From Brevundimonas naejangsanensis (GTDB taxonomy: Bacteria; Pseudomonadota; Alphaproteobacteria; Caulobacterales; Caulobacteraceae), in contig NZ_CP032707.1 in NCBI RefSeq assembly GCF_003627995.1, positions 2,780,501 through 2,844,500 on the forward strand: a stretch of 64,000 nucleotides of DNA, written 5' to 3'. Made by a program: the position numbers and the translations under genes. A model generated the notes under the pieces. It had not been told where the DNA came from, ran no database searches, and saw nothing but the letters and a program-made list of their open reading frames with translations. Below, one piece after another: positions 3,078-44,034 of this stretch. Position 1 is the first letter of the stretch; each line of letters starts with the position of its first letter.

Positions 3078-3107
3078 CTCGTCTCGGGGGGGCGGAAGGC
3101 GTCGGCA

Positions 3108-4319
3108 TCAGGATCGCCGCCTGACTCGCACGCCGTCGCGGACCTGGTCTGACGGGAAGACGATGACCGTCTCGCCAGACTGAAGGCCCTTGACGACTTC
3201 GGCCTCACGGTCCGTCAGCGCGCCGACCTGGACCGGCGTCAGGCGCGCACGCCCGGCCACCAGTTTGAAGACAGCCCACCCTCCCTTGTCACGCACCAGC
3301 GCGCCCAGCGGCGCCTTGATCGCGTCCGGCGCGCGTCGCAGGAAGACCCTGCCCGAGAGGCGGTACCCCGGCCCCAGCGATGACCAGGTCTCGGGATCAC
3401 CCTTGAACTGCAATACGACGACAACGCGTTGCTCCTCGACGCCCAGCGCCGACACCTTGGTGAAGCCCTGGGGTTCGACCCGCCGCACGACGGCCGGGAT
3501 CGCCCCCGGTCCGCCCCAGTCGAAGACCTCGGCCTCCATGCCTTCACGGACTTTCACTGCGTCCTGGGACAGGAATTCGATCGCGGCCTCCAGCCCGCTC
3601 TGGTCGCTGACCTCGATCAGGGGCGCGCCGGCCACGACGGGCCGAGCGCTTTCCTGCAGGACGCGGGTGACATAGCCGGAAGCCGGCGCCGTGACGGCGA
3701 CCAGGCCGCTTCCTGCGGCGTCGGGACCGACCAGGGCGGCGCGGGCGGCGGCGAGGTCAGACCGGCGCACGTCCACCTGCGCCGTCAGGGCGCGCACCGC
3801 CGCGCGGGCGGCTCGCGCCTCGGCTTCGGCGGCGTCGCGCGCCTGGGTCGAGGCGAAACCGCGCTCGGCCAGCGTGGTGACGCGGGCGAGATCGCCCTCG
3901 GCCTTGCGCGCCTGGGCGGCGGCCTGATCGCGCTGCGCCTGAACCGACGAAAGGGCCGCCGTAGCCGCCGAGACCGACGCCTGCGCCAGAGCCCGCGAGC
4001 GAGCGTCAAGCAGGTCCGGCGCGGCGGGACGTATGCGGGCCACCAGGGTCCTGCCGGCCACGACCCGGTCGCCGACGTGAAGATCGATCCGCTCCAGCCG
4101 TCCGGCGACAGGAGCCGCTATCAGATAGGCCTCGTGCACCCGGGCCTCGCCTTCGGCGGCGACGGCGTCGGCGATGGGGCCGCGACTGATCACGTCCACG
4201 TCCACCGCGACGGGATGCGGCGCCAGCAGAAGGCCCAACACCGCCACGACCGTCGCCGCGACCAGGGCCCCCAGCGCCCACCTCGGCCATTTTGCGGAGA
4301 ACCTGTTCAGCCAAGCCAT
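3108..4319 (-). CDS. HlyD-family periplasmic adaptor subunit
   Basis: A 403-residue membrane-fusion (adaptor) protein. It has a short cytoplasmic N-terminus, one membrane segment (about residues 14-34), a first half-lipoyl segment around APVAGRLERIDLHVG, an Ala/Arg-rich coiled coil (about 105-210) and the second half-lipoyl and beta-barrel region starting near VTAPASGYVTRV. It would link the FtsX-type permease encoded upstream to the cell exterior. The start at 4319 (MAWLNRF) lies 4 nt after the permease stop; a longer open frame reaching 4403 would overlap the permease gene heavily and is rejected. The trio adaptor-permease-ATPase resembles DevBCA/MacAB-type exporters. The substrate is unknown, and no outer-membrane channel gene is adjacent. 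Confidence 0.85.
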   Translation of the reverse strand: MAWLNRFSAKWPRWALGALVAATVVAVLGLLLAPHPVAVDVDVISRGPIADAVAAEGEARVHEAYLIAAPVAGRLERIDLHVGDRVVAGRTLVARIRPAAPDLLDARSRALAQASVSAATAALSSVQAQRDQAAAQARKAEGDLARVTTLAERGFASTQARDAAEAEARAARAAVRALTAQVDVRRSDLAAARAALVGPDAAGSGLVAVTAPASGYVTRVLQESARPVVAGAPLIEVSDQSGLEAAIEFLSQDAVKVREGMEAEVFDWGGPGAIPAVVRRVEPQGFTKVSALGVEEQRVVVVLQFKGDPETWSSLGPGYRLSGRVFLRRAPDAIKAPLGALVRDKGGWAVFKLVAGRARLTPVQVGALTDREAEVVKGLQSGETVIVFPSDQVRDGVRVRRRS

Positions 4320-4323
4320 CGGC

Positions 4324-6693
4324 CTACTCCCGCGTCTTGAGGACAGCGACCAGATCAAACGTCCATATGCGCCGCGCCGCCAGACCCCCGGCCAGGGCGA
4401 CAACGATCAGATAGGCCCCGATCGCCGCGCCGTAGCTGTCGGCGGCGATGATCGCGGGGAAGCGGACGTCCTCGCGCGAATAGGCGGCCACCAGCCCGTG
4501 AGACAGGCCGTAGCCGCCCAGCACGCCGATCGGAACAGCGAGCAGCGCCAGAACGGCCAGTTCGCCCAGCAGGATATAGGCGCAGGTCGCCGGATCGAAT
4601 CCCAGCACCCGCAGGGTGGCCAGATCGCGCACTCGCTCGGCCAAGGAAATCCGGCACATATTGTAGGCGACGCCGAAGGCGATGGCCCCGGCGAAGCCCA
4701 GGTAGAACAGGATCGCGGTGCTGAAGGACTTGGCCATGACCGCTCGCCAGGCGGCGACGGTGTCGTCGCGCGAAGACGAGCCGACGATCTGGGGCGCGGC
4801 CTCGATCGCCCGATAAAAGGCCCCGCGCGCATCGGCGGCGACCAGCAGCTCGGCCCCGCTGGCGACATCGCCCTCGCCCATCAGCCGGTTCAGCGCCCGG
4901 CGGTCCATATAGGCCGTCGCCCCGCTGTAATCGCGGGCCAGGCCCGTGATCGGCAACAGGGCCTGGCCGCCTCGCCCGTCGAGGATCTCGACCCAGACGC
5001 GGTCGCCGGGCTTCAACGACAGCCGCGCCGCCAGCGCCTCGTCGAGCACCAGCCCCCGTCCCGCCGGCGCCGCCACGCGATCGCTCGGCCCGAGCGCCCG
5101 GTGCAGCATGGCGTCCGGGTCCAGCCCCACGATCCGCGTCATCTCTTCGCGCCCGCCGGACCTGAACCGAACCGCCACGACGCGAACGGGCTCGGCGGCG
5201 AAAACGCCGGGCAGTCGCGCGAGCGCGTTCACCGCCTCGACGTTGCGCGGCTCCGCGAAGCCGACGGATTCGCTCCAGCGCTGGGAGCGGAAGTAACTTC
5301 GCTCAACCACCCGGTCGAGGCTGTCGAACAGGAACAGCGATCCGATCAGCAGGACCAGCCCCGCCGCCAGCCCCAGGGTCGTCAGGACGGCGCGGACAGG
5401 AAACCGCTCCAGATTGCGCACGATCATGCGGGTGGCCTGATCGATCCGCGCATCGCGGAACAGGTCGTCCAGAACCCCCCGTCGAAAGGATGCCGGCCGG
5501 GGCGGCTGCATGGCCACGGCCGGCGATAGGGCGGTCGCCCGCCTCGCCGCGGCCAGCGACCCGGCCATCGCAGCCGCGATCGAGACCGCCGTCGCGCCGA
5601 TGAAGGCCATCCAGCTGAACCGCACCTGCAGTTCAGGAAAGCGGAAATAGTCGCGATAGAGGTCCACGATGGCGGCGCCGAACCCGCCGCCGATCAACCC
5701 GCCGCCCAGCGCCCCCGCCGTACCGATGGCGGCGGCCATGCGGACATAGTTGGCGGCCGCCTCGCGGTCGCTGTAGCCGAAGGCCTTGAGCAGGCCGATC
5801 TGTTCACGTTCGGCGTCCACCAGCCGCGACACGACCAGATGCACCAGCGCCGCCGCGACGATCAGGAAGACCGGCGGCAGAACCGAAGCCGAGATGGAGA
5901 GCTCCTTCAGTTCGGCCGTCAGGAAGGCGTGCGACGCCTGATCCGTCCGCTCGTAGGCCGCGCGTCCGCCATAGGGCGCCAGCACCCGGTCGACCTCTTG
6001 CAGCACCCCAGGCCGCGAGACGCCGGGCGCCACGGTCAGCGCTACGGCGTTGAACGCCCCCGTCATGTCGGTCGCCCGCTCGACCGCGCGACGCGGCGCC
6101 CACAGGACGCCCTGGTGCGCGTCGTCGGGCATGAAGGACTCGGGCGCCGGCACATAGACGTATTCTGGCGACAGCACGGCCCCCACGATGACGAAGGACA
6201 CGACGCGCCCGCCGATGGTCGCCCTGAGCCGATCACCCAGCCTGACGCCCGCCGCGTCCATGAACGCCCTGAGCGCGACTGCCTCCTCCATCCGAGCTGG
6301 ATCGGGCATCCGCCCCGCGACCAGTTGCACGCAGTTCAGGCAGCGTCGCGGATCGTCCGGCAAGGAAATCAGTCGCGCGATCGCCGGACGCGACAAGCCC
6401 GGCACGTCCATCAGGCCGCTCTGGACGATGCGCGCATCGACGGCGGTCACGCCTTCAATGGCCGCGAGGTCCCGTTCGCGCGCCAGCGGCGCCCGCTTGG
6501 CGGCGGCGAAGACGTCAGCGAAGCGGGTCTCGCGATAGAAGTCCGCCTGCGCCTGCTCCAGGGCGCGCTGGGCCGAGAAGGCCATCACCGCCACGGACAC
6601 GCCGCAGGCGATCAGCAGAGCGATGGCCAGCACCTGCCAGCGCATGCGCCATAGGTCGCGCCCCAGCTTGCGGTCCAGGGCGCGCGGTTTCAC
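4324..6693 (-). CDS. ABC transporter permease with two FtsX domains
   Basis: A 789-residue inner-membrane protein with an N-terminal membrane helix (about 17-37), a large periplasmic region, a first FtsX block of three helices (about 265-385), a second periplasmic loop and a C-terminal FtsX block (about 660-780). This two-module layout is typical of MacB/LolC-like type VII ABC systems that act mechanically on periplasmic substrates rather than carrying them across the inner membrane. Its start overlaps the stop of the ATPase gene by 4 nt (ATGA), and the adaptor gene follows after 4 nt, so the three form one operon read leftward. There is no sign of truncation. Substrate unknown: lipid, lipoprotein, peptide or drug export are all possible. 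Confidence 0.86.
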
Positions 6694-11340: not shown

Positions 11341-12318
11341 CTAGAATCGGAAGGCGCAGGCTCCCCACGTCAGGCCGCCGCCCATGGCCTCGACCAGGAC
11401 CAGATCGCCCTTCTTGATGCGCCCGTCCTTGATGGCCACGTCCATCGCCAGCGGGATGGAGGCGGCCGAGGTGTTGGCGTGCATGGCCACGGTCGAGATG
11501 ACCTTGTCCTCGTCCAGGCCCAGGCGGTCGCCGACGCCCTTGATGATCCGCTGATTGGCCTGGTGCGGCACGAACCAGTCGATCTCGGGGATATCGACGC
11601 CGGCAACCTCGGCCGCCGACGTGATCGCTTCGGCGATGTTGACCACGGCGTGGCGGAACACCTGATTGCCCAGCATCCGCAGATGGCCGACCGTGCCGGT
11701 CGTGGCCGGGCCGCCGTCGACGTAGAGCATGTCGGACTTGGCGCCCTCGCAGCGCAGGGCGAAGCCCAGCACGCCACGATCTGCCTTGGTCCCCTGCCCT
11801 TCGCCGGGCTCCAGCACGAAGGCGCCGGCGCCGTCGCCGAACAGGACGCAGGTCGTGCGGTCCGTCCAGTCCATCAGCTTGGTCATTTCCTCCGCGCCGA
11901 TGACCAGGGCGCACTTGGCCTGGCCCCGGGCGACGAAACCGTCGGCCACGCTCAGCGCATAGACGAAGCCCGAGCAGACCGCCTGAACGTCGAAGGCGAT
12001 GCCCACCGGCGCGCCCAGCTTACGCTGGACGATGGCCGCCGTGGCCGGGAAGGTCTGGTCCGGCGTGGTGGTGGCGACGATGATCAGATCGACGTCCGCC
12101 GCCGTCTTGCCCGCATCGGCCAGGGCGCGTTCGGCGGCCTTCACCGCCAGGTCGCTGGTCGGCTCGTCGTCGCGGGCCTTGTGGCGCTGGCGGATGCCGG
12201 TGCGCTCGATGATCCATTCGTCGGAGGTGTCGACGATCTTGGCCAGATCCTCGTTGGTCACGACCTGCTCGGGCAGGAACGACCCCACTCCGGTGACGAC
12301 GCTACGAATGACGCTCAC
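11341..12318 (-). CDS. fabH: 3-oxoacyl-ACP synthase III
   Basis: A 325-residue KAS III that condenses acetyl-CoA (or another acyl-CoA) with malonyl-ACP to begin fatty acid synthesis. The catalytic triad is visible: Cys in DVQAVCSGF (about residue 113), His in WFVPHQAN (about 250) and Asn in MHANTSAAS (about 280). Length matches the family. The ATG overlaps the plsX stop by 4 nt, so the two are translationally coupled, as in the usual plsX-fabH arrangement that links phospholipid and fatty acid synthesis. Confidence 0.96.
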
Positions 12319-13385
12319 TTTTGGGTTTCTCCCATGACGGCGGGCGCAGGCTCATCCATGGCGGCCGCCAGACGCGCGAAATTGGCGCTGACCTTGGTCA
12401 GATAGTCACTGCGGGCCAGTTCGACAGCCACGCGGATGGCGTTTCCATAACCCTCGGCCGTGGCGCCGCCGTGGCTTTTCACGACAATTCCGTTCAGGCC
12501 CAGCAAGGGTCCGCCGTTGACGCTGCTCGGATCGATCCGGCGCGCCATCTTCTTGAGGGCCGGCATGGCGATCAATGCGCCCAGCTTGGCGAGCGGGCCG
12601 GAGGTCAGCGCCTCCTTCAGCAGGCCGGAGATGAAACGGGCCGTGCCCTCGGCCGTCTTCAGGGCGATGTTGCCGGTGAAGCCGTCGGTCACCACCACGT
12701 CCACCGTCCCGGCGGCGATGTCATGCCCCTCGACGAAGCCGGTATAATTCACGGGCACGGCGTCGGTGCGCAGCACGGCGTGGGCCTCGCGCACCTCTTC
12801 ATGGCCCTTCATGTCTTCGGAGCCGACGTTCAGCAGGCCGACCGTCGGCCGCTCCACGCCATACACGGCGGATTGGAAGGCCTCGCCCATGATGGCGAAC
12901 TCGACCAGTTGGCGCGCGTCGCTGCCGATATTGGCGCCGACGTCCAGAACGGCCGTGAAGCCGCGCTTGGTGGGCCAACTGGCGACGATGGCCGGGCGCT
13001 CCAGCCCGTCGACGGCCATGCGCAGGATCAGTTTCGAGATCGCCATCAGGGCGCCGGTGTTGCCCGCCGAGACGGCGGCCTGGGCCTCGCCCGCCTTCAC
13101 CGCCTCGATCGCGTTCCACAGGCTGGAGCCCTTGCCCCGGCGCATGGCCTGGGCGGGCTTTTCGTCCATGGCGACGACCTTGTCCGTGTGACGGACCTGG
13201 CAGACATCATCCGACAGTCCGCAGCGCGCCATCTCGGCGCGGATCGCGGCCTCGTCGCCGTGCAGCAGGAAACGGACCCCGTCGCCGCCATAGCGCGAGA
13301 AATAAGCCTTCACGCCGCCGACCACGACGGAGGGACCGTGGTCCCCGCCCATGGCGTCGAGCGAGATCAGTGTGGATGATGCCAA
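12315..13385 (-). CDS. plsX: Phosphate acyltransferase PlsX
   Basis: A 356-residue PlsX, which makes acyl-phosphate from acyl-ACP for PlsY in phosphatidate synthesis; it is a peripheral inner-membrane enzyme. Hallmarks are the N-terminal [25 protein letters not shown] near residue 106 and [14 protein letters not shown] near 235. The start appears to be TTG at 13385. Unlike many bacteria, no rpmF (ribosomal protein L32) lies between the DUF177 gene and plsX; the 99-nt gap is too short for it and shows no L32-like peptide. Confidence 0.95.
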
Positions 13386-13484
13386 GTGGAAATCGACTCC
13401 GTCGCCGTCTTGTCGCGGCGCTTCATGTTAAGGCGGGCGGACGAAAATGTCGCACCCCGTGGATGCAACCGGGGCGCCCTTAGG

Positions 13485-14012
13485 TCAACTCTTGTCCGAG
13501 CCGTCCGGCTTCAGCGCCCGCAGCACGCCGAAAGGCGAGATCTCGCCGGGCTCGGGCGGCTGCTCGAACACCGCGCCTTCCTTGCGGGGATAGGGGTCCA
13601 GGCACAGGGCCAACTGCTCCACGGCGTACTGGCCCAGGTCGATCTGGCCGTTCTCCACCACGTCGGGCGAATCATCGTCCAGCTCCAGGTCGATCTCGCC
13701 CTCTTCCAACGGGGGCGTGTCCGAGGCCTCGACCAGATTGATCTCGAAGCGTTCGTCGACATGGACCGGCAAGGGCTCCAGCGTCAGAACGCAGGACTGG
13801 ACCGCATCGGCTGCGACGCGGCCGGTCAGCCGCCAGCCCGACACCGTCGCCGTGACCTCCAGGTCCGCCTCGAATCGATCCAGCGACTTCAGGTTCAGCG
13901 CCCGGGCGATGCGGACGCGCGCCTCGGCGTCCGGCTCCAGATGCCGGGAAAGGCCCGCTCCGATCTGGTGCAGGCGGACGGGGTCGCTGAAAGGCAGGGT
14001 GGGAATCGTCAT
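13485..14012 (-). CDS. YceD/DUF177 family protein
   Basis: A 175-residue protein of the YceD (DUF177) family. The features seen are the opening region SDPVRLHQIG, a central DAVQSCVLTLEPLPVHV segment with the family's single conserved Cys, and an acidic C-terminal half (EEGEIDLELDDDSPDVV). Homologues are linked to 23S rRNA accumulation and sit next to rpmF/plsX. Its start overlaps the end of the upstream chaperone gene by 4 nt (ATGA). The molecular role in alphaproteobacteria is not firmly known. Confidence 0.86.
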   Translation of the reverse strand: MTIPTLPFSDPVRLHQIGAGLSRHLEPDAEARVRIARALNLKSLDRFEADLEVTATVSGWRLTGRVAADAVQSCVLTLEPLPVHVDERFEINLVEASDTPPLEEGEIDLELDDDSPDVVENGQIDLGQYAVEQLALCLDPYPRKEGAVFEQPPEPGEISPFGVLRALKPDGSDKS

Positions 14013-14536
14013 GCGATGATCATGGCCCAGTCCGGCGCCTTTTCCACGGCGGAAGTCGCCTGGCGCGACAGCCGGTCATGCGATTCCAACGCGTAACGGG
14101 TCAGTTCGGCCCCGTCGGCGGGGTTTTCGCTCTCGAACACGTTGCGCGCGATCGAGGCCTGGAAGCCCGCGTGGTCGCCTTCGCGCAGCGCCTTCTCATA
14201 GGCGCTCATGCGGCCATAGAGCGCCTCGCCCAGCTTACGCATCTTCTTGCCGACCGAAACGTCGCCGACGCCCAGTTCACGCAGCACATTGTCCAGCGCC
14301 GAGACATAGGCGTCAAACACCTTCTGAGCCAGGTCGGCGCCGCGCTCGCCATCGGCCTTCATCCGCACGAACAGCAGCAGGACATGCAGGGTGTACAGTT
14401 CGAAGCGCGCGTCGATTCGGTCGGCCACGCCCAGGCGGGCGTAGAAATCGGGCTGGCGCGCCTGTTCGACCGCCAGGGCGTAAAGGCCCTGCGCATGCCG
14501 CTCTTGCGTCTGTCGTCTGAAGAGTGTCTTGAACAT
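14009..14536 (-). CDS. Ubiquinol-cytochrome c chaperone family protein (CBP3-like)
   Basis: A 175-residue mostly helical protein of the CBP3/UQCC1 family. Characteristic segments are RIDARFELYTLHVLLLFVRM near residue 45 and the region around FDAYVSALDNVLRELGVGDVSVGKKMRKL. In mitochondria the family aids cytochrome b / bc1 complex assembly; in alphaproteobacteria it is conserved beside the DUF177 gene, and a similar job is inferred. It is read leftward and divergent from bamE across a 90-bp gap that must hold both promoters. Confidence 0.87.
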   Translation of the reverse strand: MFKTLFRRQTQERHAQGLYALAVEQARQPDFYARLGVADRIDARFELYTLHVLLLFVRMKADGERGADLAQKVFDAYVSALDNVLRELGVGDVSVGKKMRKLGEALYGRMSAYEKALREGDHAGFQASIARNVFESENPADGAELTRYALESHDRLSRQATSAVEKAPDWAMIIA

Positions 14537-35868: not shown

Positions 35869-35943
35869 GGACGCGTAGCTCAGCGGGAGAGCACCTCGTT
35901 CACACCGAGGGGGTCACAGGTTCAATCCCTGTCGCGTCCACCA
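35869..35943 (+). tRNA. tRNA-Val (CAC anticodon)
   Basis: Cloverleaf: acceptor GGACGCG/CGCGTCC, D-arm GCTCAGCGGGAGAGC, anticodon stem CCTCG/CGAGG holding TTCACAC (anticodon CAC), and T-arm containing GGTTCAATCC. Discriminator A and encoded CCA are present. Confidence 0.96.
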
Positions 35944-36289
35944 TCTTTTCCTAAATAATACAACGCCCCCACTATCGGACGCAGATAGTGCGCGCCTTGG
36001 CTCAATTGAACCGCCACGCCTCCGTGCCAGGCGTAAGCCGCCGTCATGGCGGCCCGTGAAACCGTCAGCCGAATGACCGAGCGCGGCCGCCTGAAAAAGC
36101 CTCGCCTGCCGGCCTCCGGACAAGGCTTTCAGCGCTGATCTTGGCCGGCGCCGTGGAACCCAATTGTTAACAATCGGTTAACGCAATTGTCGGCGACGTC
36201 GGGGTCCCCATGATCTCCCCTGTCGCGCGAATACAGTAAGCGTCTGGCGTTGATCCGGCTTTTTTAAACAACAAACAAGGCTGAAAGCG
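35944..36289. other. 346-bp intergenic region before the polysaccharide locus
   Basis: No gene is supported. A hairpin cactatc/gatagtg (35970-35990) lies after tRNA-Val. Around 36161-36189 is an AT-rich palindromic cluster, listed separately, and the promoter and leader of the downstream epimerase gene should be here. The sequence just before its ATG (aaggctgaaagcg) is a weak ribosome site. Confidence 0.5.
36161..36189. promoter_or_regulatory. GTTAAC double palindrome, candidate operator
   Basis: caattg, a perfect 12-bp palindrome attgttaacaat (36163-36174), a second gttaac exactly 11 bp after the first (36166 and 36177), and a closing caattg (36184-36189). Spacing of one helical turn and position about 100 bp before the polysaccharide genes suggest a regulator-binding site. 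Confidence 0.4.
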
Positions 36290-37318
36290 ATGAATGACGA
36301 TCGCTTTTCTTATGCTCCGACCCCCGTCGTGACACGGCCCAAGAGGGTCGCCGTATCCGGCGGAGCGGGATTTCTCGGATCGCATCTGTGCGGCCGCCTG
36401 ATAAAGGCGGGCCATGACGTGACCTGCATCGACAACTTCCATACCGGGCGCCACGCCAATGTCGCTCATCTGATGGGCTCGGACCGCTTCCATCTGGTGG
36501 CGCAGGACATCAACGAGCCCCTGGGCGACGAACTGGGCCGGTTCGACCAGATCTACAACCTGGCCTGCCCCGCCTCTCCTGTTCACTATCAGTACGACCG
36601 CGTGAAGACGGCCCTGACCTGCGCAATGGGCACCTGGAACCTGCTGAAGCGCGCGGCGACGGACGGGGCGCGGTTCTTCCAGGCCTCGACCTCGGAAATC
36701 TACGGCGACCCGGAAATCCACCCGCAGGCGGAGACCTATCGCGGCAACGTCAACACGGTCGGACCGCGCTCCTGCTACGACGAGGGCAAGCGGTTCGCCG
36801 AGACCCTGGTGACGGACTTCGGCCACCAGCACGGGCTGACCACGCGGATCGTGCGCATCTTCAACACCTATGGGCCGCGCATGCACCCGGACGACGGGCG
36901 GGTGGTCTCCAACTTCATCGTCCAGGCCCTGGCCGGGCGAGACATCACCATCTACGGCAGCGGGGAGCAGACGCGTTCCTTCTGCTTCGTCGACGACCTG
37001 ATCGAAGGCTTCATCCGACTGATGGAGACGGATGAGGAGATCGACGGGCCGGTCAACATCGGCAACCCGAACGAGATCACGGTCAACGAACTGGCCCAGC
37101 AGGTCATCGCCCTGTCCGGGTCGCGTTCGCGACTGGTCTATCACCCGCTGCCGATCGACGACCCGCGCCGCCGGAAGCCCGACATCTCCAGGGCCCTGAC
37201 CCACCTGCGCTGGTCCCCCCGCGTGCAGCTTCAGGAAGGGCTGGAGCGGACCATCGCCTATTTCAACGCCGAGCTTCACGGGAACAGCGTAGCCCAGAGA
37301 GGCGCGGCCGCGTCCTAA
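36290..37318 (+). CDS. UDP-glucuronate decarboxylase (UDP-xylose synthase)
   Basis: A 342-residue short-chain dehydrogenase of the UXS type: NAD site [11 protein letters not shown] (23-33), the diagnostic [12 protein letters not shown] (90-101), the catalytic Tyr163/Lys167 in SCYDEGKR, and [19 protein letters not shown] enzymes oxidise and decarboxylate UDP-glucuronate to UDP-xylose. The N-terminal 20 residues are non-conserved. It is first in a rightward group with a GT2 synthase, a second epimerase, a BcsS-like protein and a GH10 xylanase, which suggests that the xylose goes into an extracellular polysaccharide. dTDP-glucose dehydratase is excluded by the ACPASP motif. Confidence 0.88.
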
Positions 37319-37379
37319 CCCCCACAGGACCGAACAACCACCACCGACTTATTGGGCAACTAACTGGGCGAACCGCGTG

Positions 37380-38822
37380 ATGAACCTTCAAGATCCCAAC
37401 TGGGCGACCGTGCTGGTCTGGTTGTTCGCCATCTCCCAGATCCTGTATCTCGGCAGCTTCCTGCTAGAGATGTATTTCCGCTCGCTGCGCGTCGAGCGCG
37501 TGGACATGTCCGAGCCCCTGCCCGCCAGCGAGGCGGACTATCCCTTCATCGTCCTGCTCTACCCCGTGCTGCGGGAGCTGGAGAGCACGATGGAGACGAC
37601 ATTCACCTCCCTGGCCAAGCTGGACTATCCGACCGACCGCTATCGCGTCCTGGCCATTCCCAACAGCAGCGACGCCGAGACCGTGGCCAGTCTGAGACGG
37701 TTGAGCCGGACCTTTCCGTTCGTCGAGATTCTGGAGGTGCCGCCGACCACCGACGCCAGCTGGGACATGGTGTGGAACGCCTGGGACCAGAACCCCAAGG
37801 CCTACTGGTGGCACCGCGGCAAGCGGGCGGGCGTCAAGGACCTGCCGCCCAAGAAGACGCGCCAGCTGATCTACGCGACCTATCACGTGGCCGAGACCTA
37901 TAAGGGCGAGAGCGGGCTGACCATCGACTACATCGACGCCGACAGCTGCCCGCCGGCGGATCATTTCAAGGCGGCGGCCATCGGCCTGCGCCGGTTCGAC
38001 GTCCTGCAGGCGCGCAATGTGGCGGGCAATCTGACGGCCAGCCTGGCCGCCGCCTTCCACGCCTTCGACCACATGACCTGGGACGGCGCCAAATACGGCC
38101 ACCTGTCCGATCCGAAGCAGCCCTACTGGGTGCTGGGCAAGGGGCTGTTCTTCAAGGTCGACGACCTGATCGAACTGGGCAGCTTCCATCCCTGGATCGC
38201 GATCGAAGATCCCGAGGTCGGCGAGCGCTTCTGGAAGAACGGCAAGACGCTGGGCATCATCGAGGGCTCCCTGATCGAGGAGGTGCCCGAGACCTTCGGC
38301 GAGGGCATCACCCAGAGGAAGCGCTGGGTCGCCGGCTTCTTCCAGAGCCTGGCCACCCCGCTCAAGGAAATGGACTTCAGCTTCGGCGAACGGGTCCGCG
38401 TCTGGATGAACTTCCTGCCCTGCATGTCGATGTGGGTGAACACCGTGGGCATCCCTCTGGGCGTCTGGGCGGCCTGGCGCTTCTTCCAGGGCGCGGACTT
38501 CCTGCCGCTGTGGCTGGTGATCCTGTCGATCTTCAACATCGTCGCCTTCTCGGTCCTGATAATCGGCCTCTATATCAAGACGTGGCGGCGGACCGACCTG
38601 GTGCTGGACGGCGTAGGCGAGCGCATCCGCTACATGCTGATGGTCAATCCCGTCTTCATCATGGTCTGGTGGTGCATGTGGATCATCCCGCTGACGCTGG
38701 GCTTCGTCATGTACGTGCGGGACAGCGGCCTGGCCTGGCAGAGAACCGAGAAGATCGACGCCAACAACACCCTCGTCCGCACCAAGCTGGATGAGTTCGG
38801 CGCCCTCCGCCACCACCACTAG
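37380..38822 (+). CDS. Membrane glycosyltransferase family 2 (processive synthase-like)
   Basis: A 480-residue inner-membrane GT2. It has one N-terminal helix (about 8-28), a cytoplasmic GT-A domain (about 50-325) with YPFIVLLYPVLRELESTMET, VLAIPNSSDAETV, DxD in DYIDADSCPP (about residue 180), ED in WIAIEDPEVGERF and the processivity motif QRKRW (about 310), and about four helices at the C-terminus (335-450). This is the BcsA/chitin-synthase-like layout that couples polymerisation and export across the inner membrane. No PilZ domain is seen. ATG 37380 (an adjacent GTG at 37377 is in frame). The genes around it suggest a xylose-containing product. A single-transfer enzyme cannot be ruled out. 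Confidence 0.87.
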   Translation: MNLQDPNWATVLVWLFAISQILYLGSFLLEMYFRSLRVERVDMSEPLPASEADYPFIVLLYPVLRELESTMETTFTSLAKLDYPTDRYRVLAIPNSSDAETVASLRRLSRTFPFVEILEVPPTTDASWDMVWNAWDQNPKAYWWHRGKRAGVKDLPPKKTRQLIYATYHVAETYKGESGLTIDYIDADSCPPADHFKAAAIGLRRFDVLQARNVAGNLTASLAAAFHAFDHMTWDGAKYGHLSDPKQPYWVLGKGLFFKVDDLIELGSFHPWIAIEDPEVGERFWKNGKTLGIIEGSLIEEVPETFGEGITQRKRWVAGFFQSLATPLKEMDFSFGERVRVWMNFLPCMSMWVNTVGIPLGVWAAWRFFQGADFLPLWLVILSIFNIVAFSVLIIGLYIKTWRRTDLVLDGVGERIRYMLMVNPVFIMVWWCMWIIPLTLGFVMYVRDSGLAWQRTEKIDANNTLVRTKLDEFGALRHHH

Positions 38823-38832
38823 GCAGGCAGCC

Positions 38833-39969
38833 ATGGACAAGCACATTCTCATCACGGGGGGGGCCGGCTTCATCGGCTCCCACCTGGTCGACGCCATGCT
38901 GGCGCGCGGCTATCGCGTAACCGTCCTGGACAGCCTGTCGCCCCAGGTGCACGGCGACGCGGAACTGGACGCCGAAGGATGGCCCACCTACCTCGACCCC
39001 CACGCGCGCCGCATCAGGGGCGACCTGCTGGAGGACGGGGTGTTCGAGGCCGCCCTAGACGGGGTGACCCACCTGGCCCACCTCGCCGCCTCGGTCGGCG
39101 TGGGTCAGAGCATGACCAACATCGTCGACTACACCCGCAACAATGTGATGTCGGCCGCGATCATGCTGGAGACGCTGTCTCGGCGGCCCCACACGGTGCA
39201 GCGGATGGCCGTGGCCTCGTCCATGTCGATCTATGGCGAGGGCGACTATGTGCGCCCCTCGACCGGCGCTCACGTCACCGCCGACATCCGCCCGCACGCC
39301 CAGCTGGAGGCCCGACAGTGGGACCTGATGGTCGACGGGGAGGCGCTGGAGCCCTGCCCCACGCCGGAAGAGAAGCGGCTGCAACCCAACTCCATCTACG
39401 CCGTGAACAAGCGCGACCATGAGGAGATGTTCCTGTCGGTCGGGCGGGCGCTGCGCATTCCCACGGTGGCGCTGCGGCTGTTCAACGCCTACGGCTCGCG
39501 CCAGGCCCTGAGCAATCCCTATACGGGCGTGGCGGCCATCTTCATCTCGCGGCTGATGAACGACCAGCCGCCGCTCGTCTTCGAGGACGGACGGCAGATG
39601 CGGGATTTCGTTCACGTCCAGGACGTGGCCGAAGCCTTCGCCACCGTGCTGGATGACGACCGAGAGATCTGGGACGTGTTCAACGTCGGCAGCGGCGCCC
39701 CCGTGTCGATCAATGAGATCGCGGCCATCCTGGCCCGGCTGCTGGGCAAGAACATCGCGCCGGAAATTCTCAACCGCTATCGGGTCGGCGACATCCGCCA
39801 CTGCTTCGGCGACATCTCCAAGATCCAGCGCACCTTCGGCTTCGCGCCGCGGCGGTCGATGGACCAGGGCATGGAGGAGTTGATCGCCTGGGTGTCCCAT
39901 GCACGCCCCCCCGTTGACCGCAGCGCTGAAAGTCTGGAACAACTGGCAAGGGGAAGGCTGGTCGTCTGA
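38833..39969 (+). CDS. NAD-dependent sugar-nucleotide epimerase/dehydratase
   Basis: A 378-residue SDR protein: NAD site TGGAGFIGSHLVDA (8-21), HLAHLAASVGVGQSM, ASSMSIYGEG with Ser130, catalytic YAVNK (Tyr189, Lys193), RLFNAYGSRQALSNPYTGV and GRQMRDFVHVQDVAEAF. The pattern resembles the sugar-nucleotide 4-epimerases annotated as dTDP-L-rhamnose 4-epimerase or UDP-glucose 4-epimerase; the substrate cannot be fixed. In this setting a UDP-xylose/UDP-arabinose or UDP-glucose/galactose epimerase is plausible. It starts 10 nt after the GT2 gene and is clearly in the same transcript. Confidence 0.85.
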   Translation: MDKHILITGGAGFIGSHLVDAMLARGYRVTVLDSLSPQVHGDAELDAEGWPTYLDPHARRIRGDLLEDGVFEAALDGVTHLAHLAASVGVGQSMTNIVDYTRNNVMSAAIMLETLSRRPHTVQRMAVASSMSIYGEGDYVRPSTGAHVTADIRPHAQLEARQWDLMVDGEALEPCPTPEEKRLQPNSIYAVNKRDHEEMFLSVGRALRIPTVALRLFNAYGSRQALSNPYTGVAAIFISRLMNDQPPLVFEDGRQMRDFVHVQDVAEAFATVLDDDREIWDVFNVGSGAPVSINEIAAILARLLGKNIAPEILNRYRVGDIRHCFGDISKIQRTFGFAPRRSMDQGMEELIAWVSHARPPVDRSAESLEQLARGRLVV

Positions 39970-40061
39970 CAGCATTCGCCCTTGTTCGCTCTGCGTCTGA
40001 ACTGCCTGTCGCCGGCGTCGCCAGCATTTGGCGCGTTCGATACTTCGCAAGGAACTGTCCC

Positions 40062-40787
40062 ATGCCCCACCATCGTCGCCCGATGACCGGATTGTCGGCC
40101 CTAGCCGCGACCGCCCTCGCCTGCGCCGGCGTCGCCTGGGCCGGGACGGCTTCGGCGCAGAGCGACGTCACGGTGTTCGCAGGCGGCAAGCTGGATGTCG
40201 CCGACAGCGCCTATGCCGGGGCGACGATCGGCCTGCCCGGCTCGGTGGATTCCAAGGGCCTGGCGCTGCGGGGCGCTGTCTTCACCGGCACCTACGACTA
40301 TCGCTCCGGCCCGGCCGAGATCGACGCCGACTTCACCGGCGCCCAGGCGGAACTGGTCTATCGCTTCGGCAACGGCCCGACCTGGGGCAGCGTGGGCGTG
40401 GGCTATCGCTACGTCGACACGGACCTCAGCCCCGCCGATCCCGGCAACCGGCGCGACGGCGGCCAGGGCGAGATGATCGTCTCGACCGACGGCGGCCATG
40501 TCTCCGGCCCCTGGCGGTTCGACTGGTACGGCTCCTACGGCTTCCGACTGGACGACTATGACGCCCTGGTCAGCCTGACCCATCAGGCCGGGTCGTCGGG
40601 CCGCCTGCGCGTAGGCATGGAGGTCGCCGCCGAGGGCGACACCAACTACAACGCCTATCACGTCGGCCCGATGGCGGGGTTCAAGCTGGACGACCGCTCG
40701 GAAGCCCAGGTCTCAGCCGGCTTCAGCGACGGCGACAATCGCGACTCCCAGGCCTATCTGCGCCTCGGCTTCTACCGCAGCTTCTAG
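40062..40787 (+). CDS. BcsS-like outer-membrane protein
   Basis: A 241-residue protein with a signal peptide (hydrophobic stretch LSALAATALACAGVAWAG, cleavage after ASAQ near residue 33). The mature part alternates strands ending in aromatic residues (VTVFAGGKLDV, YAGATIGLPG, LALRGAVFTGTYDY, GSVGVGYRYVDTD, WRFDWYGSYGF, LRLGFYRSF) and ends in Phe, as beta-barrels do. The opening GGKLDV / YAGATIGLPG pattern matches proteins annotated as cellulose biosynthesis protein BcsS; this is recognised from memory. It may form or support an export pore for the polymer made by the neighbouring synthase. ATG 40062; an ATG at 40083 is also possible. Confidence 0.75.
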   Translation: MPHHRRPMTGLSALAATALACAGVAWAGTASAQSDVTVFAGGKLDVADSAYAGATIGLPGSVDSKGLALRGAVFTGTYDYRSGPAEIDADFTGAQAELVYRFGNGPTWGSVGVGYRYVDTDLSPADPGNRRDGGQGEMIVSTDGGHVSGPWRFDWYGSYGFRLDDYDALVSLTHQAGSSGRLRVGMEVAAEGDTNYNAYHVGPMAGFKLDDRSEAQVSAGFSDGDNRDSQAYLRLGFYRSF

Positions 40788-40858
40788 GCTCGCGACGCGC
40801 CGCGCGGCCAAGCTCACAGAAACATCATTTTCTCGCCCTGGCGCCATCATCCGGACCT

Positions 40859-40877
40859 GTTAAGCCCGCGCCTTAAC
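40859..40877. promoter_or_regulatory. GTTAAG inverted repeat before the GH10 gene
   Basis: gttaag (40859-40864) and cttaac (40872-40877) form a perfect 6-7-6 inverted repeat in the 145-bp gap before the xylanase gene. It shares GTTAA half-sites with the cluster at 36161-36189, so it may bind the same regulator. No T-run follows, which argues against a terminator. Confidence 0.35.
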
Positions 40878-40932
40878 GAGAAGTTCAGCGTACCGGACCA
40901 CCCTTCTCGCATTCTCGAGGAGGCGCTGCCGG

Positions 40933-42060
40933 ATGTCGCCGCGGCCCAGCAGACGAGCCCTGATCGGCGCCGCCGCCCTGACGCCGGCGCTAGGCCTCGC
41001 CGCCTGGCGTCGCCCCGAAGGCGCGCCGCTTGATCCCCCGACCATGACCACCGTCGCCACCCTGGCCGACGCCGCCCGCGCCCAGGGCCGCTACTACGGC
41101 GCCGCCGTCCGCGCCGAGCAGTTGCGCGAGAACGCCGGGTTGCGCGCCGCCGTCCTGCGCGACTGCCAGGTGCTGACGCCCGAGATCCACCTGAAGTGGA
41201 ACTCCCTGGAATGGCGCAAGGGCGAGTTCAACTTCGCCCCGGTCGACGACCTGCTCGCCTTCTCGCAGCGGCACGGGATGGAGGTTCGCGGCCATACCCT
41301 GCTGTGGGACCAGGGCACGCCGGGCTGGGCCAGGCAGGACATGCTGCAGCGGCGCGACTGGTCGCTGATGTCCGGCCATCTGGAGCGCGTCCTGAAGCGA
41401 TACGCCCCGCGCATCACCGACTGGGACGTGATCAACGAGCCGATCGACACCGAAGCCGGCGCGGCCGGCCTGAGACGCAACGTCTTCCACCAGGCCTTCG
41501 GCCCGACCTACATCGAGCGCGTCCTGGAGGAGGCCCGCGCCCACGCGCCCCAGGCCCACCTGGTGATCAACGACTACGGCTTCGAATACGATAACCCGGT
41601 GGATCAGGCGCGGCGCAAGGCCATCGTCGCCCTGGCCCGGCGTCTGCGCGCCTCGGGCGCGCCGCTGGACGGGATCGGCGTCCAGGCCCACCTGGACCTG
41701 TCCAAGGGGCCGCTGGCCGTCGAGGGCCTGCGCGACATGACCCGGCGCCTGATCGACGAGGGCCTGGAAGTCACCATCACCGAACTGGACGTCAAGGAAT
41801 CCAGTTTCCACGGATCCGCCGCCGCCCGCGACCAGAAGGTCGCCGACGAGACGCGCCGTTACCTCGAGACCATGCTAGCCTTCCCACAGGTTCGCGGCGT
41901 CGTCACCTGGGGCCTGAGCGATCGCTTCTCCTGGCTTTCGGAGCCGCCCCAGCGCCTCCATGCCGACGCCCCGCTCAACCGCGGCCTGCCTTATGACGCC
42001 GATTATCGTCCGAAAGCGATGCACCACGCCCTATCCGAGGCGCTGCGCCTGACGGCCTGA
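40933..42060 (+). CDS. Endo-1,4-beta-xylanase, GH10 family, exported
   Basis: A 375-residue GH10 enzyme. The N-terminus MSPRPSRRALIGAAALTPAL with RPSRRAL resembles a Tat signal. The (beta/alpha)8 barrel is complete: LTPEIHLKWNSLEW, VRGHTLLWDQGTPGW, acid/base Glu169 in DWDVINEP, VINDYGFEYDN, VQAHLDL and nucleophile Glu284 in VTITELDV, then GVVTWGLSDRFSWL. The family hydrolyses beta-1,4-xylan. No carbohydrate-binding module is present, and no TonB receptor or xylose catabolism gene is near, so a processing or release function for a polymer made by this locus is as likely as plant-xylan use. Confidence 0.91.
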   Translation: MSPRPSRRALIGAAALTPALGLAAWRRPEGAPLDPPTMTTVATLADAARAQGRYYGAAVRAEQLRENAGLRAAVLRDCQVLTPEIHLKWNSLEWRKGEFNFAPVDDLLAFSQRHGMEVRGHTLLWDQGTPGWARQDMLQRRDWSLMSGHLERVLKRYAPRITDWDVINEPIDTEAGAAGLRRNVFHQAFGPTYIERVLEEARAHAPQAHLVINDYGFEYDNPVDQARRKAIVALARRLRASGAPLDGIGVQAHLDLSKGPLAVEGLRDMTRRLIDEGLEVTITELDVKESSFHGSAAARDQKVADETRRYLETMLAFPQVRGVVTWGLSDRFSWLSEPPQRLHADAPLNRGLPYDADYRPKAMHHALSEALRLTA

Positions 42061-42154: not shown

Positions 42155-43660
42155 TTGCGGAATCTCGCCAAAACAATCGATCTGGTGGCGGCGTTCGACT
42201 CCTCTCCCAACCCTTACGCGCTGCTGGATCGCGACTTGCGGTTCGTGAGCATGAACCAGGCCTATCTCGACATCTCCCATCGTCGCCGCGAAGACCTGAT
42301 CGGCCACGACATCATGGAGGTCTTCGCACCAGGCGACGACGAGATCAGCCGTAAGGCCAGCCGCCGGCTGCGCGCCTCTTTCGACAAGGTGATGGCGACC
42401 GGCGAGCCGGATCACCTCGCGGTCCTACATCATCCGATCATGCGGTCGCAGCCCGACGGCTCGCGGATGACGGACGATCACTACTGGAGCTGCACCCACA
42501 CGCCGATCAAGGACAAGGACGGCCGGGTCACCCACATCCTCCAGGACTCCACCGATGTGACGGACCTGGTGCGCTTTCGCGCGGATCGCGAGGGAAACCT
42601 GGACACCAGCACCGCCCTGGACGCCGTCGCCCGCAGCGGGGTGTTCCAGCGCGCCATGCAGATCGAGGCCAACAACCAGCGCCTCGAGGCCGAGCGCAAG
42701 CAGCTCACCGACATGCTGATGAACGCGCCGGGCTTCGTCGCCGTGCTGAACGGTCCGGACCACATCATCCAGTTCTGCAACGACGCCTGCTACCGCCTGG
42801 TCGGGCATCGCGAGGTCCTGGGGCGCTCGGTCCGCGACGCCCTGCCCGAACTCAGCGACCAGGGCCACCTGGAGTTCCTGCACGACGTCTTCGAAACCGG
42901 CGAGCCGGTCTATGGCCGCCAGCAAGCCTTCGCCCTGCGCCATGCGCCCGACGGCCCGCTGGAGAACCGCTACATCGACTTCGCCTACCAGCCCATTCGC
43001 AGCGAAGAGGGCAAGACCATCGGCATCTTCGTCCAGGGCCACGACGTCACCGACGTGGTGATGGCCGCCGAACGGCAGAAGCTGATGATCGACGAGCTCA
43101 ATCACCGGGTGAAGAACACCCTGGCCACCGTCCAGTCCATCGCCATGCAGACGGCCCGCACCCACGAGGACCCCCGCTCCTTCGCCGAGGCGTTCCAGTC
43201 GCGCATCCTGGCCCTGTCGCACACCCACGACCTGCTGACCCGCAGCCACTGGGAGGGCGCCGACCTGCGCGCCGTGCTGGAGCACGAGACTATGGCGCAC
43301 GGCTCGGGCAGGCTGAGCATGAACGGCCCCCATGTCGCCCTATCGCCGGCGCGAGCGCTGTCCCTGGGCATGATCTTTCACGAACTGGCCACTAACGCCG
43401 CCAAATACGGGGCCCTGGCCAGCGGCGACGGCCGGGTCATGGTCGACTGGCGCCTGACGAACCAGAAGTCGCCGCGCCTCGACATCACCTGGCGCGAGAT
43501 CGGCGGCCCCCCGGTCCCGGCGCCGGAGCGGCGCGGCTTTGGCACCCGCCTGATCGAGCGCAACGTGCGCCATGACCTGCACGGCTCGGTGAACCTTACC
43601 TATCCGGCCGGGGGTTTCCTCGCCGAGATCAGCCTCCCCCTGGATTCAGAGATTTTATGA
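42155..43660 (+). CDS. HWE-family sensor histidine kinase with two PAS domains
   Basis: A 501-residue soluble kinase. Two PAS domains (about 15-145 and 185-305) are followed by the HWE dimerisation region with phospho-acceptor His317 in DELNHRVKNTLATVQSIAMQ. The kinase domain has MIFHELATNAAKYGAL (N box), WRE and GFGTRLIERNVRHDLHG (G box). No membrane segment is seen, so it senses an internal or diffusing signal; the usual LOV Cys motif (NCRFLQ) is absent. The start is a TTG at 42155 with GAGAGGGG upstream. The response regulator overlaps it by 4 nt (ATGA). It may control the adjacent polysaccharide genes or general stress; that is unproven. Confidence 0.88.
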   Translation: MRNLAKTIDLVAAFDSSPNPYALLDRDLRFVSMNQAYLDISHRRREDLIGHDIMEVFAPGDDEISRKASRRLRASFDKVMATGEPDHLAVLHHPIMRSQPDGSRMTDDHYWSCTHTPIKDKDGRVTHILQDSTDVTDLVRFRADREGNLDTSTALDAVARSGVFQRAMQIEANNQRLEAERKQLTDMLMNAPGFVAVLNGPDHIIQFCNDACYRLVGHREVLGRSVRDALPELSDQGHLEFLHDVFETGEPVYGRQQAFALRHAPDGPLENRYIDFAYQPIRSEEGKTIGIFVQGHDVTDVVMAAERQKLMIDELNHRVKNTLATVQSIAMQTARTHEDPRSFAEAFQSRILALSHTHDLLTRSHWEGADLRAVLEHETMAHGSGRLSMNGPHVALSPARALSLGMIFHELATNAAKYGALASGDGRVMVDWRLTNQKSPRLDITWREIGGPPVPAPERRGFGTRLIERNVRHDLHGSVNLTYPAGGFLAEISLPLDSEIL

Positions 43661-44034
43661 CTGACGTGCTTTCAGGCCGCCGCATATTGGTTGTCGAGGA
43701 CGAGTCCCTGGTCGCCATGCTGCTGGAGACGGTTCTCGGCGACATGGGCTGCGACGTGGTGGGGCCGGTGTCGAACATCGGCGACGGCTTAAGCGCCGTG
43801 GCAGGGGAAGCGGCGCTGGACGCCGCCCTGCTGGACGTCAATGTCGCGGGCCAGGAGGTCTTTCCGATCGCAGAGGCGTTGCAGGCGCGCGGCGTCCCCT
43901 TCGTCTTCTCGACCGGCTACGGCGAAAGCGGCCTGCCCGAACACTGGCGCGGCCATCCCACGGTGCAGAAGCCCTTCACCGACACCGCGATCCGCGACGC
44001 GCTGATGGTTGCCATGGACATCCGCACGGCCTGA
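43657..44034 (+). CDS. Single-domain response regulator
   Basis: A 125-residue receiver without output domain: acidic pair Glu14/Asp15 in VVEDES, phospho-acceptor Asp60 in ALLDVNV, Thr/Ser in VFSTGYGE and Lys105 in TVQKPF. Such HWE-kinase partners usually act through protein-protein contact or phosphate relay. It is coupled to the kinase gene by an ATGA overlap. Confidence 0.9.
   Translation: MTDVLSGRRILVVEDESLVAMLLETVLGDMGCDVVGPVSNIGDGLSAVAGEAALDAALLDVNVAGQEVFPIAEALQARGVPFVFSTGYGESGLPEHWRGHPTVQKPFTDTAIRDALMVAMDIRTA

Follow-up and report, generated by a model that had tools for sequence, protein, structure and literature searches.

A compact gene cluster of Brevundimonas naejangsanensis likely to encode a synthase-dependent polymer system using UDP-xylose

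Genes of the cluster and their products

A stretch of 64,000 nucleotides of the Brevundimonas naejangsanensis genome (assembly GCF_003627995.1, contig NZ_CP032707.1, positions 2,780,501 to 2,844,500; host genome size 3.0 Mb), referred to here as the window, was analyzed for a cluster of five genes at positions 36290-42060. All five lie on the + strand without interruption, with intergenic gaps of 58, 10, 92 and 145 nt. They encode a UXS-type UDP-glucuronate decarboxylase (UXS), a membrane glycosyltransferase of family 2 (GT2), an epimerase of the short-chain dehydrogenase/reductase (SDR) type, a BcsS protein and a glycanase of glycoside hydrolase family 10 (GH10). In a family scan all five proteins scored above the curated Pfam cut-offs (SDR/UXS, PF13632, SDR epimerase, PF17036 and PF00331). 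The genes had been listed in a preliminary description of this DNA as five consecutive rightward genes of these families, and all positions and family calls were confirmed. The cluster is likely to encode a dedicated synthase-dependent polymer system using UDP-xylose. Its features are:

36167..36181, + strand: CtrA-type site TTAA-N7-TTAA, 123 bp upstream of the UXS start
36290..37318, + strand: UXS-type UDP-glucuronate decarboxylase, from motifs and PDB matches to human-type UXS1 entries
37377..38822, + strand: membrane GT2, from PF13632, the motif alignment and a predicted fold like hyaluronan synthase (HAS) and BcsA
38833..39969, + strand: SDR sugar-nucleotide epimerase with an ATG start, from the family scan and PDB matches
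40062..40787, + strand: BcsS, from PF17036, with a predicted 12-strand barrel and a hydrophobic N-terminal stretch
40933..42060, + strand: GH10 glycanase, from PF00331, with the twin-arginine-type motif SRRALI

The best PDB matches of the first protein were UDP-glucuronate decarboxylases, namely the UXS1 entries 2b69 and 4gll with an E value of 4e-106, and the next best SDR other than a UXS followed at 1.6e-38. The protein carries NLACPASP at residue 90, STSE at residue 133, Y163 and K167 exactly as had been described, and RRRKPD at residue 293. Thr-Ser-Glu, YxxxK and Arg, which we take to be the active-site residues of UXS enzymes, are all present, and judged from its sequence the protein belongs to the UXS class. 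It is 64% identical (residues 18-326) to the Sinorhizobium meliloti pSymB gene taken as uxs1. No second UXS was found in the window genome at an E limit of 1e-40. A single protein of the UDP-glucose dehydrogenase family exceeded the cut-off in this genome; its gene is not in the window, and two further matches, weak and partial, stayed under the cut-off. UDP-glucuronate would probably be made elsewhere in the cell by this protein, and UXS would decarboxylate it to UDP-xylose. In the related locus of Rhizobium sp. BG4, UXS and GT2 are separated by a gene of the UDP-glucose/GDP-mannose dehydrogenase family. Its place suggests a UDP-glucose dehydrogenase; if it is one, the route from UDP-glucose via UDP-glucuronate to UDP-xylose would lie in one operon.

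For the epimerase, a longer open reading frame (ORF) from 38791 overlaps the GT2 gene, and the ATG start at 38833 was used. The PDB matches of the protein comprised several SDRs, UDP-glucose 4-epimerases included, none of them decisive, and the earlier call of a second sugar-nucleotide epimerase was borne out. This enzyme would probably turn part of the UDP-xylose, or another sugar nucleotide, into the C4 epimer.

The GT2 consists of 481 amino acids and shares 94% identity with its counterpart in Brevundimonas diminuta ATCC 11568. PF13632 (70 bits) was its sole family match, and no PilZ domain was found on it. D187-A-D189, E277-D278 and Q313-RKR-W317, the DxD, ED and QRKRW motifs named before, are invariant in 12 of 12 alignment rows. 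An AlphaFold2 model from 11 rows reached a mean predicted local distance difference test score (pLDDT) of 71.7 and a predicted template modelling score of 0.75, with one helix long enough to span a membrane at the N terminus and several at the C terminus. The top Foldseek matches were the Chlorella virus hyaluronan synthase and bacterial cellulose synthases including BcsA (E values of 2e-10 to 1e-9). With DxD, ED, QxxRW and C-terminal membrane helices in the sequence and model, the protein carries the markers of the HAS/BcsA class, and its model resembles processive synthases, as had been proposed. Like hyaluronan synthase, the top match, it is a single-polypeptide membrane GT2, but the identity is just 12-13%, the donors are different, and the window has dedicated outer-membrane and hydrolase partners. 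The enzyme would sit in the inner membrane, where it would polymerize and extrude the chain using one or both donors.

We also considered that the GT2 might be non-processive and add sugars to a lipid, a protein or a linked system resembling amyloids. The moderate confidence of the GT2 model would allow it, and in one related locus (L044) GT2 is preceded by a C39-peptidase gene that has leader-type neighbours, similar-looking genes being present by our own reading in L045, L046 and L047. However, QxxRW and the membrane helices in the C-terminal part point to a processive synthase, as do the top fold matches, and a decorating enzyme would leave the dedicated endo-hydrolase without a ready explanation. 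We regard this alternative as improbable.

Linkage, co-occurrence and the CtrA-type site

Full-length relatives of the GT2 were found at 19 distinct loci in Caulobacteraceae, sphingomonads, a Rhizobium plasmid and other alphaproteobacteria. In this count G267 and G102 were merged with L033 and L035, and G680, G684 and G690, with the same identities in their short flanks, were counted as L036, L041 and L040. Among 299 Caulobacteraceae genomes 8 had a relative, all other listed matches scoring below 41 bits. A class-wide sample of 385 genomes had 3 at an E limit of 1e-60. The window genome is included in both numbers, and the other two of the class sample belong to families f30 and f67. The scan of named genomes gave 10 GT2 loci. 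Three records came from the plasmid collection, among them a near relative in Rhizobium sp. BG4 (57%).

The gene content of the loci was read by tblastn with the window proteins. A GH10 gene was near GT2 in 18 of the 19 loci, UXS in 17 (not in L046 and L059), the epimerase in 18 and BcsS in 13. The epimerase follows GT2 directly in 16 loci and lies 3-5 kb away in L047 and L060. GH10 is downstream and co-directional in the nine near loci, defined by a GT2 identity of 78% or more, and in L039, which ends early on its contig; it is convergent in L037, L045, L046 and L047, and upstream and divergent in L038 and L042. Two GH10 copies are present in L038, L042, L044 and L045.

Co-occurrence was determined in 29 genomes: 10 carry GT2, and the 19 others, which lack it, are of the same genus and were hand-picked from the Caulobacteraceae scan list. 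UXS was present in 10 of 10 genomes with GT2 and in 2 of 19 without it at an E limit of 1e-40 (Fisher p 3e-6), and within the genus in 6 of 6 compared with 2 of 19 (p 1.6e-4); these p values are too small, as the genomes are related and the 19 were hand-picked. G252 and G363 have no UXS beside GT2 but have one elsewhere in the genome. BcsS was present in 8 of 10 GT2-bearing genomes (8 of 8 in the family) and in 0 of 19 without GT2. Linkage across the loci supports the view that the genes belong together, and UXS tracks GT2 even where it is unlinked. Conservation of the gene group, which the preliminary description had named as a check on its proposal, thus did not speak against it.

The sequence TTAACAATCGGTTAA at 36167-36181 was the sole match to TTAA-N7-TTAA in the window; 100 shuffles gave none. 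This pattern is the published CtrA consensus (PMC9437464). The site lies just inside the start coordinate of the preliminary description, which had missed it. A full site was present in 7 of the 9 near loci, and L036 and L048 have sites with one mismatch. It stands at -123 or -124 from UXS in all five diminuta-type loci and at -178 from the first aligned UXS codon (residue 20) in L035 and L040; the Rhizobium BG4 locus also has a full site. Within 500 bp upstream of UXS a full site was found in 8 of 16 regions, compared with 22 sites in 670 kb of fetched DNA, copies included. In L047, which is outside this count, the only full site is about 210 bp upstream of an epimerase-UXS pair. No site was found within 500 bp upstream of UXS in L037, L038, L039, L044, L045 and L060. 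CtrA probably controls transcription of the locus, which would couple polymer production to the cell cycle. A second full site occurs in L041 (13514-13528), 60 bp upstream of GH10; in the window this place holds a degenerate version.

Immediately after the cluster comes a two-component pair that had also escaped the preliminary description:

42155..43660, + strand: PAS/HWE histidine kinase from the family scan, adjoining the GH10 gene
43657..44034, + strand: single-domain response regulator, HWE kinase partner (Pfam 29.7 bits, just below the cut-off of 30.2)

The HWE kinase adjoins the cluster in 8 of the 9 near loci and was not found in L034; it may have a role in the polymer system. In the Rhizobium BG4 locus a PAS-GGDEF-EAL protein is adjacent (L042:4384-6120), which hints at c-di-GMP control there.

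The linked GH10 enzymes and the BcsS barrel

The GH10 protein scored 250 bits with PF00331 and shares with GH10 xylanases the fold, the GHxxxW segment common to them and both catalytic glutamates; Glu169 and Glu284 are invariant across 16 aligned GH10 sequences. An RR (twin-arginine-type) motif near the N terminus was present in 18 of 20 linked GH10s, the other two (both of L045) being over-extended, unreadable ORFs. This agrees with the earlier description of an exported GH10 with both catalytic residues. Exported by the Tat route, the enzyme would trim or release chains, as BcsZ does for cellulose.

The linked enzymes differ from xylanase 3wuf at two positions, which presumably belong to the -2 subsite (N44 and Q87 in Cex numbering). 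Of 15 linked GH10 rows, 14 replace the Asn of TPEN by Ile, Leu, Val, Phe or Tyr, and none has the Gln of WHNQLP; the window enzyme has Ile and Gly there. The core (unlinked) copies are also without the Asn and mostly have Trp, so that its loss alone is not peculiar to linked copies. The altered pattern may be taken as a sign of a changed substrate, and plain xylan is not assured because the changes are at presumed sugar-binding positions. They would also suit a mixed polymer, with the GT2 polymerizing another sugar such as glucose or a uronic acid and xylose present only in side chains or in minor amounts; so would the cellulose and hyaluronan synthases found as fold neighbours of the GT2. A single glycosyltransferase is encoded, however, whereas side chains would need another enzyme, and UXS tracks GT2. 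A mixed polymer of this type is a possibility to which we give roughly one chance in four.

A GH10 tree was calculated from 41 sequences, i.e. 20 linked copies and 21 of 26 other copies whose short flanks show no cluster gene. The linked copies came from 16 of 18 loci; L033, a near copy, and L060 were left out. Nineteen of the 20 linked copies fell into one clade (support 99/98), with a program warning of long branches, and the second copy of L044 fell among the other GH10s.

GH10 was present in 221 of 299 Caulobacteraceae genomes, and its presence alone was dropped as a marker of the system on this account. The window genome itself has a second GH10 (L055:9715-10863, about 1766714-1767862 of G000:C1) between ctrA-like and fliI-like genes, these names being our own reading of the sequences. 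It may be a core envelope enzyme. It has an RR-containing, lipobox-like leader, and none of the listed genomes of the same genus was without GH10; in another scan two of low or middling completeness were.

GH10 is usually an enzyme acting on plant cell walls, and GH10 and BcsS could accordingly serve the uptake of plant xylan, the neighbourhood of sugar-nucleotide genes being incidental. The resemblance of the BcsS model to the oligogalacturonate porin KdgM would fit such a role, as would L044, which adds a GH43 with a beta-xylosidase C-terminal domain. But no GH43 match was obtained in the window genome, which disfavours a role in feeding on xylan. The linkage to GT2 moreover survives large divergence and rearrangement, and the clade formed by 19 of the 20 GT2-linked GH10s is their own. 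A catabolic plant-xylan locus was rejected as the leading view on the missing GH43 match and the GT2 linkage, and is regarded as very improbable.

BcsS scored 83.2 bits with PF17036 (cut-off 24), and its model from 9 rows (pLDDT 77.7) is a predicted barrel of 12 strands, in agreement with the outer-membrane barrel described before. The best PDB match was KdgM (E value 3e-6), a 12-strand porin whose fold it shares, although the TM-score was about 0.5 by query, the identity only 11-13%, and BcsS sits in a biosynthetic gene group. Because FapF, OmpG and autotransporter barrels matched as well, only the barrel class is safe. Known polymer exporters have 16-18 strands and are wider; a narrower 12-strand barrel could therefore pass one thin chain or fragments released by GH10. 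BcsS would in this way let the chain or its fragments cross the outer membrane. L037, L038 and L060 have another small exported protein, mutually homologous and without a Pfam match; our guess is that it is a barrel replacing BcsS.

Known systems and interpretation

The locus is not a cellulose system, judging by the missing BcsB and PilZ. No BcsB (PF03170) match was obtained in the whole window genome at an E value of 0.001, and the same search was positive in 2 of 14 control genomes, including E. coli; this agrees with the earlier statement that no bcsB gene is present at the locus. The cluster shares with cellulose systems the GT2 fold and motifs, the BcsS family and a co-located endoglycanase in place of BcsZ. 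It differs in the lack of BcsB and PilZ, in the genes for a UDP-xylose donor and in its hydrolase, which is of GH10, while BcsZ belongs to GH8.

The nearest characterized system is the APS operon of S. meliloti, which has the same logic with a different synthase, epimerase and hydrolase. The preliminary description, which knew of no characterized bacterial xylan synthase with such genes, had overlooked it. The operon contains UXS, GalE, GT2, DUF995, GH26 and DUF995 (record CP140955); its gene names, as given in PMC7902896, were assigned to the pSymB records from the order and content of the genes, as the records do not carry them. Both units combine UXS, a 4-epimerase (in the window a putative one), GT2 and a glycoside hydrolase. 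The control differs as well, with CuxR and c-di-GMP in the APS operon according to PMC7902896 and PMC9495663, and a CtrA-type site in the window. The window system is like APS in outline and would not be counted as a member. The five-gene set itself was undescribed in the literature searched, as judged from titles and abstract openings.

An APS-like, arabinose-rich polymer would arise if the epimerase made UDP-L-arabinose from UDP-xylose and the GT2 used it. The shared series of UXS, 4-epimerase, GT2 and hydrolase argues for this, as does the position of the epimerase, right after GT2 in 16 loci and near it in 2 more. However, the epimerase is a different SDR, just 27% identical to the gene taken as uxe, which is of the GalE type, and in place of GH10 and BcsS the APS operon carries GH26 together with two DUF995 proteins. 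A comparison of the GT2 profile with the gene taken as apsS gave no alignment (hhalign probability 0.8%, E value 0.07, for a single sequence against an 11-row profile), and tblastn gave no hit at 1e-5; orthology with the APS operon was rejected for the synthase on this comparison, with its single sequence on one side. An arabinose-rich product is a tentative alternative, less likely than not.

The reading we favour, with somewhat better than even confidence, is a compact, dedicated synthase-dependent exopolysaccharide system that is fed with UDP-xylose, exports through BcsS, trims with GH10 and is linked to CtrA. The narrower proposal, a xylan or xylan-like synthase system in which a single-polypeptide GT2 makes a beta-1,4 xylose-based chain, with export by the KdgM-like BcsS, a co-evolved GH10 and CtrA timing, is possible but doubtful, and xylan proper is unproven. 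Of the original proposal of a self-contained, synthase-dependent, xylan-like system the first part stood well, since the genes belong together, UXS tracks GT2 and the synthase and barrel models fit. The term xylan-like rested on family names, the linked GH10s lack the two 3wuf residues, and GH10 is common.

Several observations weigh against the favoured reading. L059 has GT2 and the epimerase without GH10 or UXS within about 9 kb, no epimerase was found by tblastn in the stretch read of L046, and the GH10 of L060 is a weak, two-domain match (Pfam 3e-9). BcsS was undetected in 6 of 19 loci, 2 of 10 GT2-bearing genomes lack any BcsS, and two genomes without GT2 nevertheless have UXS. No periplasmic bridge between GT2 and the barrel is encoded at the locus. 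The CtrA-type site is missing from the sphingomonad and most distant loci and is hence not general. The Foldseek matches of the GT2 had only 12-16% identity and low TM-scores, mostly 0.4-0.5. Its model is only moderate, with residues 224-239, 271-276 and 304-323 (around ED and QxxRW) below pLDDT 50, and no claim on the choice of sugar is made from it because of these stretches. The two replaced GH10 residues count on the same side.

Should the locus work as proposed, a bacterial module of five genes would produce a hemicellulose-type polymer with no need of plant-type machinery. This would offer a compact source of xylan-like material that is open to genetic work and, in Caulobacterales, a surface polymer timed by the cell cycle. 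BcsS gains a partner and a testable role, and if the xylan-like synthase proposal is true it would be an exporter for such synthases and not specific to cellulose. Among the GH10 enzymes the analysis also marks out a subfamily whose probable substrate is the bacterium's own polymer.

Some minor observations were made at the loci. A tRNA-Val gene at 35869-35943 is directly upstream of the five-gene locus and possibly marks the edge of an acquired segment. The L034 contig, filed under a Bordetella metagenome-assembled genome (MAG), has a Brevundimonas-type locus (92% GT2 identity) and is probably a binning error. In L038, from a Novosphingobium MAG, GH113-like and GH26-like/RTX proteins (1339-4695 and 12100-14160) are encoded beside the two GH10s. 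Upstream of GT2 in L044 (11175-13672) are the C39 peptidase, identified by Pfam, double-glycine-type leaders and a low-complexity secreted protein, a group that seems to us reminiscent of the Fap functional-amyloid system. The similar-looking genes upstream of GT2 in the other three loci, read by eye with the Pfam test confined to L044, are at L045:2101-4766, L046:3445-6684 and L047:4103-6648.

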